Assembly: GCA_017648065.1 (NCBI GenBank)
Contig: JAGCJJ010000092.1
Location: forward strand, 1-57,328
Direction of reading: 5' to 3'
DNA length: 57,328 nucleotides
From: Kiritimatiellia bacterium
GTDB taxonomy: Bacteria; Verrucomicrobiota; Kiritimatiellia; RFP12; UBA3636
In this document: positions 3,538 through 13,002 of the stretch, piece by piece
Position numbering within the stretch: the first letter of the stretch is position 1
How the letters are laid out: the number at the start of each line of letters is the position of its first letter
Notes under the pieces: generated by a model
Databases searched by the model: none
Told to the model about the DNA's origin: nothing
Seen by the model: only the letters and a program-made list of their open reading frames with translations
Made by a program: the position numbers and the translations under genes

Positions 3538-3990
3538 CTAAATATTATCTTCTGTAAGAATTTTATCTACACCATATTTTGCAATTACCATCTGAGCCCA
3601 AATACCTGGAGCAAACCCAATTTCTTTTCCTTCATAATCATGAAGCTTTGAACATACCCCACAGCTAGGTGAACGTGCCTTGAGTAAGAAAAATGATATT
3701 TCCTCACCATCCAATTTTGCTAGCATCTGTTCGCAAACAATACGGAGCTTTTCTGTGACATCAACACGGTTTTTTGTGCCCATTACGCGAATCCCCGCCT
3801 CTCCCATATCAACTAACTCAATGGTCTCTCGAGGGATTCCTAAGCCTGCTTCAACCTCTGGACAGAAATGTATAACCTCGTATTGCTCATGTAAAGCATC
3901 AACACCTCCGACCAAATTCTTGTCAGTGCCATCATAACGCGTCTTATAACCAAGCAAACAAGAGCTTACAACTATCTTACTTTTCTTCAT
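3538..3990 (-). CDS. DUF523 family protein
   Basis: A 150-residue DUF523 (PF04463) protein of unknown biochemical function. Diagnostic stretches are VSSCLLGYKTRYDG at the N-terminus, HFCPEVEAGLGIPRE and LKARSPSCG near residue 110. Conserved cysteines (in SSCLLG, HFCPE, PSCGVCS) could bind metal or a cluster; this is inference. It overlaps the 3' end of the upstream membrane glycosyltransferase gene by 14 bp and its stop abuts the next small membrane protein, so translation is probably coupled. Confidence 0.85.
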   Translation of the reverse strand: MKKSKIVVSSCLLGYKTRYDGTDKNLVGGVDALHEQYEVIHFCPEVEAGLGIPRETIELVDMGEAGIRVMGTKNRVDVTEKLRIVCEQMLAKLDGEEISFFLLKARSPSCGVCSKLHDYEGKEIGFAPGIWAQMVIAKYGVDKILTEDNI

Positions 3991-5602
3991 TTTTTAGCTC
4001 GTAGATTTTCAGCTCAGTAAAGCACTGACCAAAGCTTGGAACTGTTTTAACTAAAGTGTACTTTCGATTCAACACTTCATTAAATTTATCTAGAAGCTCA
4101 GGAGGGGTTTGTGTTGTTGATGGGCAAAAGATTGCAAAACCATAGCCACTGACTGCAGCAACTTCATATTTGCCTGACTCAAGCATTTCCAACATTGTTG
4201 TGAATGTATGAACCTTTCTTGCACGTGCCTCATCATCTGTCATCCAACAGCTATATTCAAACATAGAGAATGGACCTAGCTCCAAACCAGGAGCAACCTT
4301 TCTTTGTGCCTCAACAGCAAGATATGCATCTTGCGTAAATAACACGGCATCCTCAGGTAATTTTTCACGAAGTTCAGCACCTATGCGTTTAAGCTTTAGA
4401 ACCTGTGGTTCATCCTGCATAACAAACCAAAATCTATCCTGACGCTCAAGCACCCAGTTCATACACATAGGAGAACCAACTGCAAAAAACCCTACAGACA
4501 CCAACACAATCAAAACCAAACCTTTATACCATGCCACATTACGAATTGCCAACGCAAAAATTGCTGCAACTATTACTGCAAACAAAGGCATACCTGGAGT
4601 CTGATAATCATCATAAGGGAATGGTGCTGTGCCATGAACAAAAAGAGTTGCGAGAAAGGCAAAGGCAATAATAACAACAAAAAGGTGCTCTATCGCTGTT
4701 GATTTAACCCACCCTGCCACACGAGTAAGCATACCTTTGTTTTGATTTGATTGATGCTGTCTTTTAGTTGTAAACCAAACAACAAGTGCGGATGCTAAAA
4801 ATAATGCAACCATAGGGAAATACGCTTGCAAAAGACGCGATGCAAAACCACCCATTAACACAAGTCTATAGAGCAAATCAGGTGTTTCTCTATGCATATG
4901 ATATGTTTGACAAAATACAAAATTATCGAATGAAGACAAAAGCACAGGAACAAAAATTATTGCAAGCATTACTACGCCAGCAATACCAAATCGGAGCCAT
5001 GCAAAGCGCAACTCTTTCCTTCTGCAGAAGATTAAAAGGCAAAATCCAACTGCTGCCAGAATTACACCTAAAGAAAGTCTTACTCCAGCTGCTAATGCAA
5101 AAAATGCTGCAGCAATCTCAAAGCTAAAGCATTTCCGGCTGACTAAAGAAAACATACCAGCAGAAACAAATAATCCAGCTAAAGCATAGGTCTTTGGAAT
5201 TGCTGTAAAATATGAATATACAGGACAAAGGCCAAGCAATGACATCGCAACTATTGCAGCACTTCCCTTGCGACCATTTGGAGCAAGACAATACACTGCC
5301 ACAGAAGCAAAGAAAATACCAAGCATACCAAGAATTGCGGTAAAGACTCTGCCACCAAGCACACCATTTGAAGCCCACAATCCACTAAAAACGCTATAGA
5401 AATATGGCATTACTGGGGCTTGTGTATATGCAAAATCCTTATATGGTTGCATACCTTGCGCTGTATTAATTCCTGCAAGCAAATACCAGCCTTCATCTTG
5501 GTTTAGCGGGCCAAGCACTACATTTATACAATATAGTGAAAGAATGCCTAGCATAACAATGCCAGCAAGCCAATACAAAAATATCGAGCGCTTCTTTTCC
5601 AT
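3977..5602 (-). CDS. GT-C-type membrane glycosyltransferase (ArnT/PMT-like)
   Basis: A 541-residue polytopic membrane protein. The N-terminal helix is followed by a first outside loop with NQDEGWYLL, whose Asp-Glu pair is typical of lipid-phosphate-sugar dependent GT-C enzymes (PMT, ArnT, GT39/GT83-like). About ten hydrophobic segments follow up to residue about 390, then a soluble C-terminal domain of roughly 150 residues. The expected role is transfer of a sugar from a polyprenyl-phosphate donor to a lipid, glycan or protein on the periplasmic face. The acceptor cannot be read from sequence. It begins 5 bp after the pseudokinase stop and overlaps the DUF523 gene, which implies co-expression. 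Confidence 0.72.
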   Translation of the reverse strand: MEKKRSIFLYWLAGIVMLGILSLYCINVVLGPLNQDEGWYLLAGINTAQGMQPYKDFAYTQAPVMPYFYSVFSGLWASNGVLGGRVFTAILGMLGIFFASVAVYCLAPNGRKGSAAIVAMSLLGLCPVYSYFTAIPKTYALAGLFVSAGMFSLVSRKCFSFEIAAAFFALAAGVRLSLGVILAAVGFCLLIFCRRKELRFAWLRFGIAGVVMLAIIFVPVLLSSFDNFVFCQTYHMHRETPDLLYRLVLMGGFASRLLQAYFPMVALFLASALVVWFTTKRQHQSNQNKGMLTRVAGWVKSTAIEHLFVVIIAFAFLATLFVHGTAPFPYDDYQTPGMPLFAVIVAAIFALAIRNVAWYKGLVLIVLVSVGFFAVGSPMCMNWVLERQDRFWFVMQDEPQVLKLKRIGAELREKLPEDAVLFTQDAYLAVEAQRKVAPGLELGPFSMFEYSCWMTDDEARARKVHTFTTMLEMLESGKYEVAAVSGYGFAIFCPSTTQTPPELLDKFNEVLNRKYTLVKTVPSFGQCFTELKIYELKNEEK

Positions 5603-5607
5603 AAACT

Positions 5608-7680
5608 CTATTTTACAAACTCAGCAAAAGGCTTCAATGCTTTAATACCATTTGCATGACGGATAAAATTACCACGGTTTTTAGCTCGCATTGCAAGAAT
5701 TGCCTTTGTAATCTGCAATTCCTTAGAGCTATCTGGCTCCGTACGTAAAATATTATACATCTCTTCAGCAGAAGCTTTAGCTAGTGGAATTGTTATATTA
5801 CGAGTCTCTGTTGAACCAACCTTACGTGCAATGCAAATAAGCTCTCCATTAGCATATCCTTGAGCTTTTACTTCAAAGGTCTTCCCTGCTATTGTAACTT
5901 TCTTAAATGCTATTTGAGTTTGACGAATCAATGCAAAACCAACAGCTTCCACCTCTAGGACAGCAGCATTCAATGTCATTAATATTCCGCGACATTCTGC
6001 ACGATTAACTCCTGGTTTAGAAGCATATTCATCAAATATTTTTTTAACCTCTGCACGAGCCTCTGTGAGTGGCTTTGTTGAAAGCACTTCATATACCTTA
6101 CGAAGCATTTCATCACGAGGAGAAACTTCCTCTACTGTTATTGATGTAGTTTCTGTTTTTTGTGTTTGAGTCACTACTTCTGATGTTGAAGAAACAGAAC
6201 TAGCAACTGTATCACCACTACTTGCTACATTTTCAACAAACTCATCCTCTTCAAAGTCACTAAGTTCAGAAAGATTCATATCCTCTACCGTTGATGCTGC
6301 TACTTCATCAGCTGCAGAATTATCATTAGCAATTTTAGAAGACTTAGATAGAGGAACAACAGGAGCCTCCTCATCCATTACTGGCTGTGAGATTTCAACT
6401 GAACCTGCAGGTCCAAGCTTTTGCACTATTGTATAAATACCACCAACGAAAAGCAGAACACAAACCAATCTTGTTAAAAGCACCACAACTCCAGAAGGAC
6501 GCATATTCACATAGCTCTTATAATTACTTTTGCGAGCTGCCACTGGTTGCTTTGGAATAGAAGTACTTGTTTTTGTCTTTTTTACATCCTGCTTAGCAAA
6601 TTGATTCTTTTGTTCTTCTACTTGTACTGGATTCTGATTTTCAGAAGGTTGAACATTACGGACTGTCTCTGCATAAGCCCCAGATGCTATCGGAGCATTA
6701 TTTACAGGCACTCCAGGAATAATTGGTGTAATAATTGGTGACTGATTTTGTGGTGTAAGTGGTGCCATTGTCAAAGGAGCCACACCTACAGAAAGCAAAT
6801 CAATTGTGCTTCGAACAGCTCCATTAGGTGGCTCCTTACGTAAAGGACGACCTGCAAGAGTATGCTCAATATCCTCTACCACATCTAACCACCAAGCATA
6901 ACGATCATTAGGACTCTTAGCCATTAATCGAGCAAGAATATATACTACATCATCAGAAAGTGTAGGATTCTTGAGCTTTGGATTTGGCAAATGACCAGAA
7001 CGCTGCAGTTCCAAAATTTTCATTGGATCTCGCTCTTCATCAAAAGGAGATGTTCCTGTAAGCATCTGGTACAAAGTTGCACCTAATCCATACATATCTG
7101 CATGAAAATCTATAGTTGGAAGGCAATCTATCTGCTCTGGAGAAGCATAATTCGGAGTGCCAACAACCATACCATCATCAAAAGCAAGTGGGTTTACTCC
7201 AGGTTGAACAATTGTTGCACTATTGAAATTGAATATTTTTATATTACCATCTGCCGAAATACGAATATTTTCAGGCTTTAAATTTCTATGAACAAAACCA
7301 ACCTGTTTCCATGCTGCATCAAGTGCCAAAGCAACTTCCTTAGCTATTTCTAATGCTTTCCCAGCATTATATGGACCATTCTCTTTGATAACTCGGGCAA
7401 CAGATACACTGTAAGCATTTTCAAAAACAATATATGGCAGACCATCTTGTGTAGTTGAAATATCAATCACAGGAGGGAAATTATTATGTTTCAATCGAGA
7501 AATTGCTCGCGTAATTGTAGAAAAATGATTTACGAGATTAGCATCTGCTGCCGAACGATCCTTCATGACCCAAATACTTACATTTCTATCTAAAGAAATT
7601 TGGCGAGCTGTCCAAATCGTAGTATCTGTTGTTCCGCCTGCTTGCTCTAATATCTCATAGCCTTCAATTTTGATTGACAT
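5608..7680 (-). CDS. Transmembrane Ser/Thr kinase-like protein, probable pseudokinase
   Basis: A PknB-type kinase fold (residues about 8-275), a Pro/Gln-rich linker (280-390), one membrane helix (about 397-419), an acidic Ser/Thr-rich stretch and a C-terminal extracytoplasmic part of about 170 residues. The fold is well kept (LKPEN at 134-138, GTPNYASPEQ at 174-183, DMYGLGATLYQMLTG), but catalytic positions are lost. The glycine loop is AGGTTDTT. The alphaC Glu position is Ile56. HRD is HRN (Asn133) and DFG is NFN (Asn151). Lys40 of beta3 remains. So it probably binds partners rather than phosphorylating them. An AAAGG ribosome site stands 9 nt before the ATG. It lies between galM and a membrane glycosyltransferase. 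Confidence 0.85.
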   Translation of the reverse strand: MSIKIEGYEILEQAGGTTDTTIWTARQISLDRNVSIWVMKDRSAADANLVNHFSTITRAISRLKHNNFPPVIDISTTQDGLPYIVFENAYSVSVARVIKENGPYNAGKALEIAKEVALALDAAWKQVGFVHRNLKPENIRISADGNIKIFNFNSATIVQPGVNPLAFDDGMVVGTPNYASPEQIDCLPTIDFHADMYGLGATLYQMLTGTSPFDEERDPMKILELQRSGHLPNPKLKNPTLSDDVVYILARLMAKSPNDRYAWWLDVVEDIEHTLAGRPLRKEPPNGAVRSTIDLLSVGVAPLTMAPLTPQNQSPIITPIIPGVPVNNAPIASGAYAETVRNVQPSENQNPVQVEEQKNQFAKQDVKKTKTSTSIPKQPVAARKSNYKSYVNMRPSGVVVLLTRLVCVLLFVGGIYTIVQKLGPAGSVEISQPVMDEEAPVVPLSKSSKIANDNSAADEVAASTVEDMNLSELSDFEEDEFVENVASSGDTVASSVSSTSEVVTQTQKTETTSITVEEVSPRDEMLRKVYEVLSTKPLTEARAEVKKIFDEYASKPGVNRAECRGILMTLNAAVLEVEAVGFALIRQTQIAFKKVTIAGKTFEVKAQGYANGELICIARKVGSTETRNITIPLAKASAEEMYNILRTEPDSSKELQITKAILAMRAKNRGNFIRHANGIKALKPFAEFVK

Positions 7681-7746: not shown

Positions 7747-8787
7747 CTAATCCTCTACGGTATAGAACTGATAGATTGTTGTTGACTGGTATACCTCTCC
7801 AGGATTTAGTCGAATTGATGGGAAGCCTGGCTGATTAGGAGAATCTGGAGCATGCTGTGTTTCCAAGCAGAAACCCATACGCTTACCATATCCACGACCA
7901 CCCTTACCAATTACCTTCTTTTGGCTTAAGAAATTACCTGTATAGAACTGAACACATGGCTCTGTTGTCCAAGTTTCCATTTGGCGACCACTCTCTTCAT
8001 CCTCTACAACAGCACATAGTGATAGATTTGCACCTGCAGGCTTACTAATCACAAAATTATGGTCATAACCACCAGCTACTTGAATTGCAGGATGCTTTGC
8101 TCTTACGCGCTCACCAATTTTATGTGGTGTAAGGAAATCCAAAGGAGTACCTTGTACAGGAAGAACTTTTCCATTAGGAATTAATCCAGGTCCAACATCT
8201 GTATAGCGATCGCAGAATAGCTGAACATAGTGATTATCTACATTTTTCTTTGCGCCATTTAAGTTAAAGTATGCATGATGAGTCAAATTTACTAATGTTG
8301 GAGCATCTGTCATTGCCCAATACTGAATTCGCCATGCATTTGTATCTTTTAGAGTGTAAACCACGCGAACAAACAAATTGCCTGGGAATCCACCTTCTCC
8401 TGCTGGGCTCAAACGAGTAAATTCAATTGCTGGGCCTTCTGGAGTATCAAATTGACGAGCATCCCAAATTACTGAATCATAGCCTCCATCGCCACCATGC
8501 AAGCAGCACTTGTTAGGACGCTTTCCTGAATTAAGTGCTAGCTTGTATTCCTTACCATCTAGAGAAAATTTACCTTCAGCAATACGATTTCCTACGCGAC
8601 CGATTAATGCTGAGATATATCCATCCTTAAGGTGATCCTCAGGCTTATCAAATTCAAGTACTACATTTTCAAATTTTCCATTTTTATCTGGCGCAGTAAG
8701 AGACATTACAATGCCTCCAAGGTTGGAAACCTTCATTGTCATGCCATTTTTGTTTGTCAAAGTAAAAATTTGTGGTTTTGCTGTCAT
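7747..8787 (-). CDS. galM: Aldose 1-epimerase (galactose mutarotase)
   Basis: Interconverts alpha and beta anomers of galactose/glucose in the cytoplasm. The 346-residue protein shows the family pattern: NLGGIVMSL near residue 22, GRVGNRIAEGKFSLDG, LHGGDGGYDSVIWDA, LTHHAYFNLNG with the catalytic histidine, GYDHNFV and the late LETQHAPDSPNQPGFPS containing the catalytic Glu region. No signal peptide. A strong AGGAGA site precedes the ATG. It is the promoter-proximal gene of the run ending at 3262, with 66 bp to the pseudokinase gene. Confidence 0.93.
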   Translation of the reverse strand: MTAKPQIFTLTNKNGMTMKVSNLGGIVMSLTAPDKNGKFENVVLEFDKPEDHLKDGYISALIGRVGNRIAEGKFSLDGKEYKLALNSGKRPNKCCLHGGDGGYDSVIWDARQFDTPEGPAIEFTRLSPAGEGGFPGNLFVRVVYTLKDTNAWRIQYWAMTDAPTLVNLTHHAYFNLNGAKKNVDNHYVQLFCDRYTDVGPGLIPNGKVLPVQGTPLDFLTPHKIGERVRAKHPAIQVAGGYDHNFVISKPAGANLSLCAVVEDEESGRQMETWTTEPCVQFYTGNFLSQKKVIGKGGRGYGKRMGFCLETQHAPDSPNQPGFPSIRLNPGEVYQSTTIYQFYTVED

Positions 8788-11217: not shown

Positions 11218-13002
11218 ATGGTTCAACAACACAACAAAATTTCTCGACAGACAGATTTTGTAGCATTCAATGCAATTGAGCATGTAGAAGCTTCTTTGAA
11301 TTATCTAACTAAAATGACTGATGCAAAATTGGGATATCTTCCTTATTGGTTTGTATCATTAAGCGGAGGACCTGCATTTGCTGAACATAATCGAATAGAT
11401 GATGCAGAGCTTGTCGCATCCTGGTATGAAGGAATTTCCTCAGCCCGTGAAATTTTAAAGACGCACAATGGTGCAGAAGTTGAACAAGCGCTTTACGATA
11501 AGCTAATAAAAGAAGGCTGGGATTCAAAAACAGGACTTCGCTTCCCTATTCAGCGCCCTTGGTCCCCAGAGCTTACATACTGCACTATTCATGAACAAGC
11601 ATATGTTCTTTCCGCACTTGTTCGAGCTATTTCTATTGACCCTAAAGATAGCAGTGCTATAAAGCGTGCAAAAGGTCTTGTTGATGGATTAAACAAGCTC
11701 GTAACAAAGCATACTTCTCGCGCTATGTGGTTCGGACAAATTGAATATACGGAGCCATCTCTTTCTTTCCCTCTTGATGTTTACATTTTAGGTAAAGGTT
11801 TCAGCAATGAAATTAATACAGGTTGGGGCGATAGTGTACTAAGAAATGCAGCTATCATCACACCACTTGTTGACTATTATGAATTAACAGATTATGAGCC
11901 TGCATTAGAGCTTGCTATTGGACTGTCAAACCACCTAACAACATATAGCCACTACTTGAATTTCAAAATGGAATTTTTCGGACATGTTAATTCTGCACTA
12001 TGGATTTCTTCTGGCTTAATCAAACTAGGTCGAATTCTTACTAATGATCGCTTTGTAGCTCGTGGCAAAGCAATTTATGATTATGTTCGTAATTATTGCT
12101 CTGCATTTGGATGGGTTCCAGAGTTTATGCATTGGCAGCTGTTAGCTGACGAGCGCTGCGAAGCTTCATGTATTAAAAATCTAATGCGCAGCGCACAAGA
12201 GCTTGTACTAAGTGGTTTCCCTGAATATTGGGATGACATTCATCGTTTCTGGCGCAATCATCTAGCAAACAGCCAGTTAACCTACACCAATTTTATTAAG
12301 GAAGACAATTCTATTGAGGACACAGAACAGCGCACTTTCAAAAATATGCGTGAGCGTGTTAAAGGAGCTGGTTTTGGAGCATCAATGCCAAACACCGTTG
12401 AAATGAATAGATTCAACACAATTTCAGGCTCTTCTTCTGCAGCTATTCCTATTGCTATGCTTATGGCATGGAAATCAACTATTGAAAGTAATAAGAATAT
12501 GGTTCTTATTAACTTCCCAGTTAATATTGAAACCCCTGATGTTAAAGTTGAGGTTGGCTACCCTAATGCCGGTTATATCCGCGTAAAGCTTAATCGAGAT
12601 TGTCGCGTAATTCTACGTATCTATCCATGGATGCCATCCCCTCATGAAGGAACAATTGACGGACGCCCTGCATGCTTGGAGCGTAGAGATGATTTAATTG
12701 CATTCTCCCCATCAACAAAGGGAACAATTATTGAACTAAGACACGAATTAAAAACACGCCGTATCATGGAAAATGTTGGTGGTATGAGCTATTTTGGTTT
12801 ATGGCGAGGTCCGGAAATGGTTGATATTTTACCTCACGCCAGCTATGGTTACAGACTATATCAGCGTGCTGTTGACGGAGAAAAAGACTATCCAAATATA
12901 GCTAGCAATATTTCTCCACTGAACCGAAAAATTGAAGTTATTCCAGAGCCTCAACCATTGAAGGAAACAAGATTAAATCGTCGCCGCGCACCACGTTCAT
13001 AA
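11218..13002 (+). CDS. GH127-like (DUF1680-type) six-hairpin glycosidase-like protein
   Basis: A 594-residue protein without signal peptide. Residues about 20-400 look like an (alpha/alpha)6 toroid of the six-hairpin glycosidase superfamily (repeated Trp/Tyr-rich helices, NEINTGWGDSVLRN, GHVNSALWISSGLIKLG). The last 150 residues look beta-rich, with VILRIYPWMPSP and a later IIELRHELKT like the C-terminal beta-sandwich of GH127 beta-L-arabinofuranosidases. I do not find the Cys-rich zinc site of characterised GH127 enzymes, so substrate and even activity are open. N-acylglucosamine-epimerase-like proteins are the main alternative. It is monocistronic, with a ribosome site AAAGGA before it and a strong terminator behind it. 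Confidence 0.5.
   Translation: MVQQHNKISRQTDFVAFNAIEHVEASLNYLTKMTDAKLGYLPYWFVSLSGGPAFAEHNRIDDAELVASWYEGISSAREILKTHNGAEVEQALYDKLIKEGWDSKTGLRFPIQRPWSPELTYCTIHEQAYVLSALVRAISIDPKDSSAIKRAKGLVDGLNKLVTKHTSRAMWFGQIEYTEPSLSFPLDVYILGKGFSNEINTGWGDSVLRNAAIITPLVDYYELTDYEPALELAIGLSNHLTTYSHYLNFKMEFFGHVNSALWISSGLIKLGRILTNDRFVARGKAIYDYVRNYCSAFGWVPEFMHWQLLADERCEASCIKNLMRSAQELVLSGFPEYWDDIHRFWRNHLANSQLTYTNFIKEDNSIEDTEQRTFKNMRERVKGAGFGASMPNTVEMNRFNTISGSSSAAIPIAMLMAWKSTIESNKNMVLINFPVNIETPDVKVEVGYPNAGYIRVKLNRDCRVILRIYPWMPSPHEGTIDGRPACLERRDDLIAFSPSTKGTIIELRHELKTRRIMENVGGMSYFGLWRGPEMVDILPHASYGYRLYQRAVDGEKDYPNIASNISPLNRKIEVIPEPQPLKETRLNRRRAPRS

Follow-up and report, generated by a model that had tools for sequence, protein, structure and literature searches.

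The gut-bacterial gene at positions 5608..7680 on the minus strand of the window (the whole 57,328-nucleotide stretch of DNA analysed here) encodes a 690-aa transmembrane protein whose kinase domain lacks the residues needed for catalysis, and the clade to which it belongs is a new family of bacterial transmembrane pseudokinases, itself a known kind of protein. We consider it reasonably probable that this protein is a non-catalytic adaptor, tethered to the membrane, for Ser/Thr phospho-signalling, descended by staged loss from a transmembrane RD-type Ser/Thr kinase. The reading frame opens with ATG at its 7680 end and stops at 5608-5610; the first-pass annotation gave the correct coordinates, but its strand has been corrected to minus, since the plus strand of this interval is rich in stops. 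All features below lie on the minus strand unless stated otherwise. Immediately upstream is galM, encoding aldose 1-epimerase (7747..8787; PF01263, E=7.1e-86), and immediately downstream is a conserved neighbour encoding a polytopic membrane protein of 541 aa (3977..5602), which had no Pfam, NCBIfam or PDB match, but in which an LNQDEGWY loop suggests a GT-C glycosyltransferase-like product. Elsewhere in the window, a 594-aa protein encoded at 11218-13002 on the plus strand likewise had no Pfam or NCBIfam match. The source genome is a 2.06 Mb draft in 102 contigs, and orthologues with 72% and 63% identity to the window protein were found in the congeneric MAGs RGIG990, from the rectum of dairy cattle, and RGIG4692, from that of roe deer.

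The window protein holds a genuine kinase domain beyond doubt. Residues 5-285 (6826..7668) match Pfam PF00069 with E=1.7e-27, and PknB is the best match in both sequence (structure 1mru, E=1.7e-29) and structure (Foldseek TM-score 0.8-0.92); the AlphaFold2 model of the domain has a pLDDT mostly >90. The marks of a Hanks-type fold are present, with the APE Glu, the alphaF Asp and the conserved Arg at E182, D195 and R260. Directly after the kinase domain, the family alignment reveals an S-T-I motif at residues 291-293 (6802..6810), with the Ser present in 28/31 and the Thr in 27/31 family sequences, and T292 may be a phospho-acceptor. A disordered cytosolic linker follows (residues 299-394, 6499..6786; pLDDT <50 over nearly all of its length), and then a single transmembrane helix at residues 397-422 (6415..6492). 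The helix, placed near 397-419 in the first-pass annotation, is borne out by the AlphaFold2 model, by a Kyte-Doolittle hydropathy peak at residues 393-405 and by the flanking charges, which are 4+/0- on the N side versus 0+/4- on the C side and thus favour an N-in/C-out orientation. Beyond it lie an acidic, disordered linker predicted from the model and its composition to be extracytoplasmic (residues 426-516, 6133..6405; 21 D+E versus 3 K+R in residues 423-518) and a C-terminal (CT) domain at residues 521-690 (5611..6120), made of four helices, four strands and four helices. Modelled alone, the CT domain gives a confident fold (pLDDT 95.1), and the flanking charges favour the extracytoplasmic position that had been proposed. 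It had no Pfam match, and a PDB fold search returned no match below E=0.001. No PASTA domain was matched in Pfam, and the score against the PASTA kinase model NF033483 (the PknB/Stk1 equivalog), at 184 bits, lies well below the cut-off of 450.

Within this conserved fold, each of the three residues whose replacement defines a pseudokinase (the beta3 Lys, the HRD Asp and the DFG Asp) has been replaced. Alignment places Trp37 (TGG, 7570..7572, in the motif VSIWVMK) at the Lys of VAIK, Asn133 of HRN (residues 131-133, 7282..7290) at the catalytic Asp and Asn151 of NFN (residues 151-153, 7222..7230) at the Asp of DFG. In addition, Ile56 (7513..7515) occupies the position of the alphaC Glu, and the glycine-rich loop is degraded (residues 13-22, QAGGTTDTTI, 7615..7644), being reduced to AGGTTDTTIW. 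The first-pass annotation of a transmembrane Ser/Thr pseudokinase with four catalytic losses agrees with the kinase-domain matches, the membrane helix and the losses themselves, and both Asn codons are AAT as it reported, but its list is one short, the fifth loss being that of the beta3 Lys to Trp37. Similarly, LKPEN and GTPNYASPEQ are intact in the window protein as claimed, but only 14/38 family members retain the Asn of KPxN. The losses at N133, N151, I56 and the glycine loop recur in both congeneric orthologues; this recurrence, together with that across the order, indicates more than chance or sequencing error. From these replacements, we infer that the window protein lacks kinase activity.

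Kinases with altered motifs may stay active or perform other chemistry, as SelO (AMPylation) and SidJ (glutamylation) do in bacteria (PMC12599244), so a rearranged mechanism might instead let the protein phosphorylate, or transfer AMP or glutamate. We regard this as very improbable, given that there is no acidic metal ligand at either Asp site, that the glycine loop is lost and that Trp37 takes the place of the ATP-binding Lys. The family has no conserved replacement active-site residues save Asp168 of the activation loop (7177..7179), which is invariant in the family and not conserved in paralogues. Moreover, HER3, which likewise has HRN, is reported to be inactive even when reverted to HRD (PMC2639636).

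To define the family, we searched 162 genomes of the order, all of them drafts and mostly MAGs, with a profile of full-length relatives. The matches fell into two classes, clear orthologues and other kinases at far lower scores; about 40 of the 162 genomes carry a full or partial orthologue of the pseudokinase. Contig-edge fragments apart, nearly all orthologues have the full-length kinase - helix - CT arrangement, and the CT domain is present in every full-length member. We then aligned 39 pseudokinase sequences with 31 other kinases, mostly from the same genomes, and the two groups are cleanly split by their catalytic residues. The Lys, Glu, HxD, Asn and DFG Asp/Gly are all kept in 31/31 of the other kinases. 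In the family, the HRD Asp is found in 0/38 sequences (33 Asn, 4 Ser, 1 Ala) and the alphaC Glu in 0/38 (Ile, Val, Met or Leu in 35/38), while the beta3 Lys is kept in 3/37 and the DFG Asp in 26/39. In the glycine loop, the Gly columns that 28/28 close paralogues retain have mostly gone from the family. Arg132 of the former HRD is invariant (38/38), as are Asp168, Glu182, Asp195 and Arg260 (39/39 each). Asn at the DFG site (as NFN or NYN) is confined to 6 sequences from 4 genera, which make up the sub-clade of the window protein, and Trp fills the beta3 Lys site in this sub-clade.

These counts bear on the proposal that both Asp-to-Asn changes were selected. For N133 the proposal is reasonable, since Asn at this position (33/38, and never Asp) is a family-wide trait. 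N151, however, is shared only within the sub-clade, and 26/39 sequences keep the DFG Asp; thus, the two changes were not one event.

The order of the losses was examined with a kinase-domain tree built after removal of 13 catalytic or motif columns. The pseudokinase family forms one clade (support 100/99), which covers GTDB family codes f1, f2, f3, f5 and f6 and broadly tracks the genome groups; the window protein falls in this clade, has lost the HRD Asp and the alphaC Glu that the whole clade has lost, and has the CT domain. The sister group (support 96/96) consists of kinases from other orders of the class; several of these (L148, L149, L160 and L156) combine an intact HRD/DLG with the same CT domain. 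The ancestor was therefore most likely an active RD kinase with the same kinase - helix - CT layout. The first-pass annotation had named orthologues with both Asp residues as evidence that would count against it; there are none within the order, and they appear one level up, in the sister group from other orders. By their position in the tree, these intact kinases fit an ancestral loss and do not rescue activity in the window protein. Taken together, the tree and the alignment show that the losses were staged. The HRD Asp, the alphaC Glu and the glycine loop went early, no later than the base of the order's clade. The beta3 Lys was lost across most of the family and kept in one family-level group. 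Loss of the DFG Asp came later and took place in the GTDB family to which the window belongs.

Motif changes are also found within the sister group, as HRN with NLG (L147, genome G340), HRG (L150) and HRN with FIG or FFG (L155 in G333 and L158 in G334). These are apparently independent conversions in other orders, from which it seems that the HRD Asp changed to Asn in parallel at least three times and the DFG Asp did so at least twice. L147 has the same double Asp-to-Asn change as the window protein, yet keeps the Lys and the alphaC Glu.

The CT domain has a wider distribution than the pseudokinase. With a profile of this domain alone, it is found in 72/334 genomes in a sample of the class and in 33/388 in a sample of the phylum, two of the latter outside the class, and its cytosolic partner may be an intact kinase, a pseudokinase, a truncated kinase, no recognisable kinase or an FHA domain. 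L207 (G079, f3) has a kinase without an activation segment, and L210 (G014, of the window's GTDB family) has only the N-lobe, the C-lobe being gone; both keep the helix and the CT domain. L210 sits between galM and the GT-C-like gene on one contig and is thus the positional orthologue of the window gene; with both flanks present, it is a firm case of truncation. L199-L202 (281-327 aa) and L203 (370 aa) are membrane proteins that carry the CT domain; a kinase domain was recognised neither in the proteins nor in the surrounding 3.5 kb examined. L208 also lacks a recognisable kinase, but the end of its contig is 44 bases from its start, and an upstream kinase may have been lost there. In another order, an FHA domain replaces the kinase (PF00498, E ~1e-16), giving FHA - helix - CT proteins (L204:1268-2404 and L205:1065-2267). 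Whole-domain losses seen on single contigs could be assembly effects, but the frames of L210 and L207 are open with flanking sequence. In a tree of the CT domain, in which many branches are weak, L207, L208 and L210 are nested within the family clades of the order and the FHA forms make up one clade; L206, labelled as a pseudokinase in this tree, is a contig-edge fragment without the catalytic loop and was left uncounted. More distantly, wider HMM searches match the CT domain to those of two intact kinases of the order with an HCD motif, L027 (E ~3e-5) and L112 (E ~2e-6). A profile-profile comparison leaving out L027 gave a weak match (prob 11.7%), and a distant relationship of these domains to the family CT domain is supported by the HMM matches. 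Judged by domain content, the common denominator of these relatives is the helix and the outside domain, not catalysis.

The stepwise loss in these relatives, which includes deletion of the activation segment, deletion of the C-lobe and absence of the whole domain, is what would be expected if the kinase were a passenger on its way out, with only the helix and the outside domain mattering. Against this reading, the kinase domain is the most constrained region of the protein in the window's genus. Among the three congeners, dN/dS is 0.08-0.09 for the kinase domain, 0.14-0.17 for the CT domain and 0.28-0.77 for the linkers, ratios that are approximate because dS is >1; dN itself is 0.09-0.12, 0.22-0.29 and 0.3-0.8, respectively. 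The earlier view that the fold is conserved thus translates into purifying selection on the kinase fold, with dN/dS of about 0.09 between congeners. N133, R132, D168 and D195 are, moreover, kept across the order. We consider it unlikely that the kinase domain is a mere remnant.

We looked to the genome for potential partners. Conservation of the order galM - pseudokinase - GT-C-like gene does not extend beyond the window's GTDB family, the neighbours elsewhere being ligA, a PPIase, Maf and others; the gene neighbourhood was therefore set aside as a pointer, as it names no partner. Besides the pseudokinase, the genome encodes five kinases that look intact, making six kinase-domain proteins in all, together with five FHA domains, while a PP2C_2 search found no such phosphatase in this 88% complete genome. 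Active kinases occur throughout the order, so that co-occurrence with them is uninformative, and the HCD kinase in particular was rejected as a partner clue as it occurs both with and without the pseudokinase.

The adaptor that we favour would work as follows. A transmembrane RD-type Ser/Thr kinase with a kinase - helix - outside (CT) domain layout would have lost catalysis stepwise, and the leftover fold would have been retained as a protein-binding module. The CT domain would engage something in the envelope, while the cytosolic pseudokinase would dock on, or allosterically influence, an active kinase, its substrate or an FHA protein. One of the five intact kinases in the genome may phosphorylate the S-T-I motif, which one of the five FHA domains may then recognise, and the invariant Arg132 and Asp168 may keep the activation segment in an active-like pose. 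Nucleotide binding is not a common conserved feature, since the glycine loop is lost and Trp stands at the beta3 Lys site in the sub-clade of the window protein, while other members have the Lys and the DFG motif. A constrained fold without catalytic residues, a varying nucleotide site and an FHA domain as a stand-in for the kinase together favour an adaptor. The first-pass suggestion of a sensor or scaffold is plausible, but the truncated, kinase-free and FHA-bearing relatives tilt the balance from sensor towards adaptor or scaffold; the kinase-free and FHA-bearing forms belong to other lineages, and their role may therefore differ. More tentatively, and with somewhat less than even chances, the CT proteins as a whole may be envelope receptors with an interchangeable cytosolic module (active kinase, HRN pseudokinase, N-lobe remnant, nothing or FHA), in which the kinase repeatedly went from enzyme to docking module across one class.

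A narrower role, to which we give a low probability, is that the N-lobe pairs with and switches on an intact kinase, such as the HCD kinase L002 on contig C76, much as HER3 does for HER2. The invariant HRD Arg132 and Asp168 could hold the activation segment in an active-like form, the N-lobe is the part that survives in the truncated orthologue L210, and the order does contain intact HCD relatives whose CT domain is related (L112, L027). However, the HCD kinase of the window's own genome has no detectable CT domain, and HCD kinases are also found in genomes without the pseudokinase, which argues against specific pairing.

Functions have been assigned to few bacterial pseudokinases. Within a single class, this clade forms a graded series in which the same helix and CT domain are joined to an intact kinase, a pseudokinase, a truncated kinase, no kinase or an FHA domain; such natural variants make the role of a non-enzymatic kinase fold directly testable by comparison, and the FHA replacement is a natural domain-swap clue to an adaptor role. 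The review of the published families (ActPs1-3, GLW, CP1, DYD and DLHK) lists them from actinobacteria, firmicutes, proteobacteria and cyanobacteria and names no PVC taxon, and the known transmembrane bacterial pseudokinases include ActPs2, ActPs3, GLW, DYD and EssB (PMC12599244). A full-text literature search combining pseudokinases with Planctomycetes and Verrucomicrobia, which covered few subscription journals, found no such family in titles or abstracts.

The window protein shares its fold and its order of kinase, linker, helix and outside domain with PknB/StkP-type kinases (M. tuberculosis PknB, 1mru, 5u94), but PknB has VAIK, the alphaC Glu, HRD, DFG and PASTA repeats, all of which the window protein lacks. 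HRN or HGN replaces HRD in HER3/ErbB3, PSKH2 and VRK3, as HRN does here, and Ser or Thr for the Ala of VAIK, as in the VSIW of the window protein, is common in pseudokinases; VRK3 takes up a pseudo-active pose without ATP (PMC2639636). These three are eukaryotic, however; HER3 keeps the Lys and DFG, and VRK3 lacks this membrane-receptor layout.

Among bacterial pseudokinases, the clade is set apart from ActPs2, ActPs3 and GLW by the descriptions of those families. ActPs2 of actinobacteria (PMC12599244), like the window protein, has the HRD Asp changed to Asn, the beta3 Lys lost and a helix after the kinase domain. It has Arg at the beta3 position, and mostly insertions of 250 residues in the activation loop and 32 residues between beta3 and alphaC (PMC12599244), whereas the window protein has W37, shows neither insertion when aligned, and comes from a different phylum. 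The GLW pseudokinases of proteobacteria (PMC12599244) resemble it in having a bulky Leu or Trp at the beta3 Lys and a membrane helix after the domain, but GLW replaces HRD where the window protein has HRN. MviN of M. tuberculosis, an ActPs3 protein, is a membrane-linked pseudokinase like the window protein (PMC12599244). It is, however, fused to a lipid flippase, whereas the outside domain of the window protein is unrelated, and the activation loop is deleted in ActPs3, whereas the window protein has a full activation segment with GTPNYASPEQ. No ATP binding is reported for MviN, which has bulky aromatics in its pocket, and its phosphorylated tail recruits an FHA protein (PMC12599244). By analogy, the MviN - FhaA pair is the nearest functional precedent, and a possible model for the S-T-I motif.
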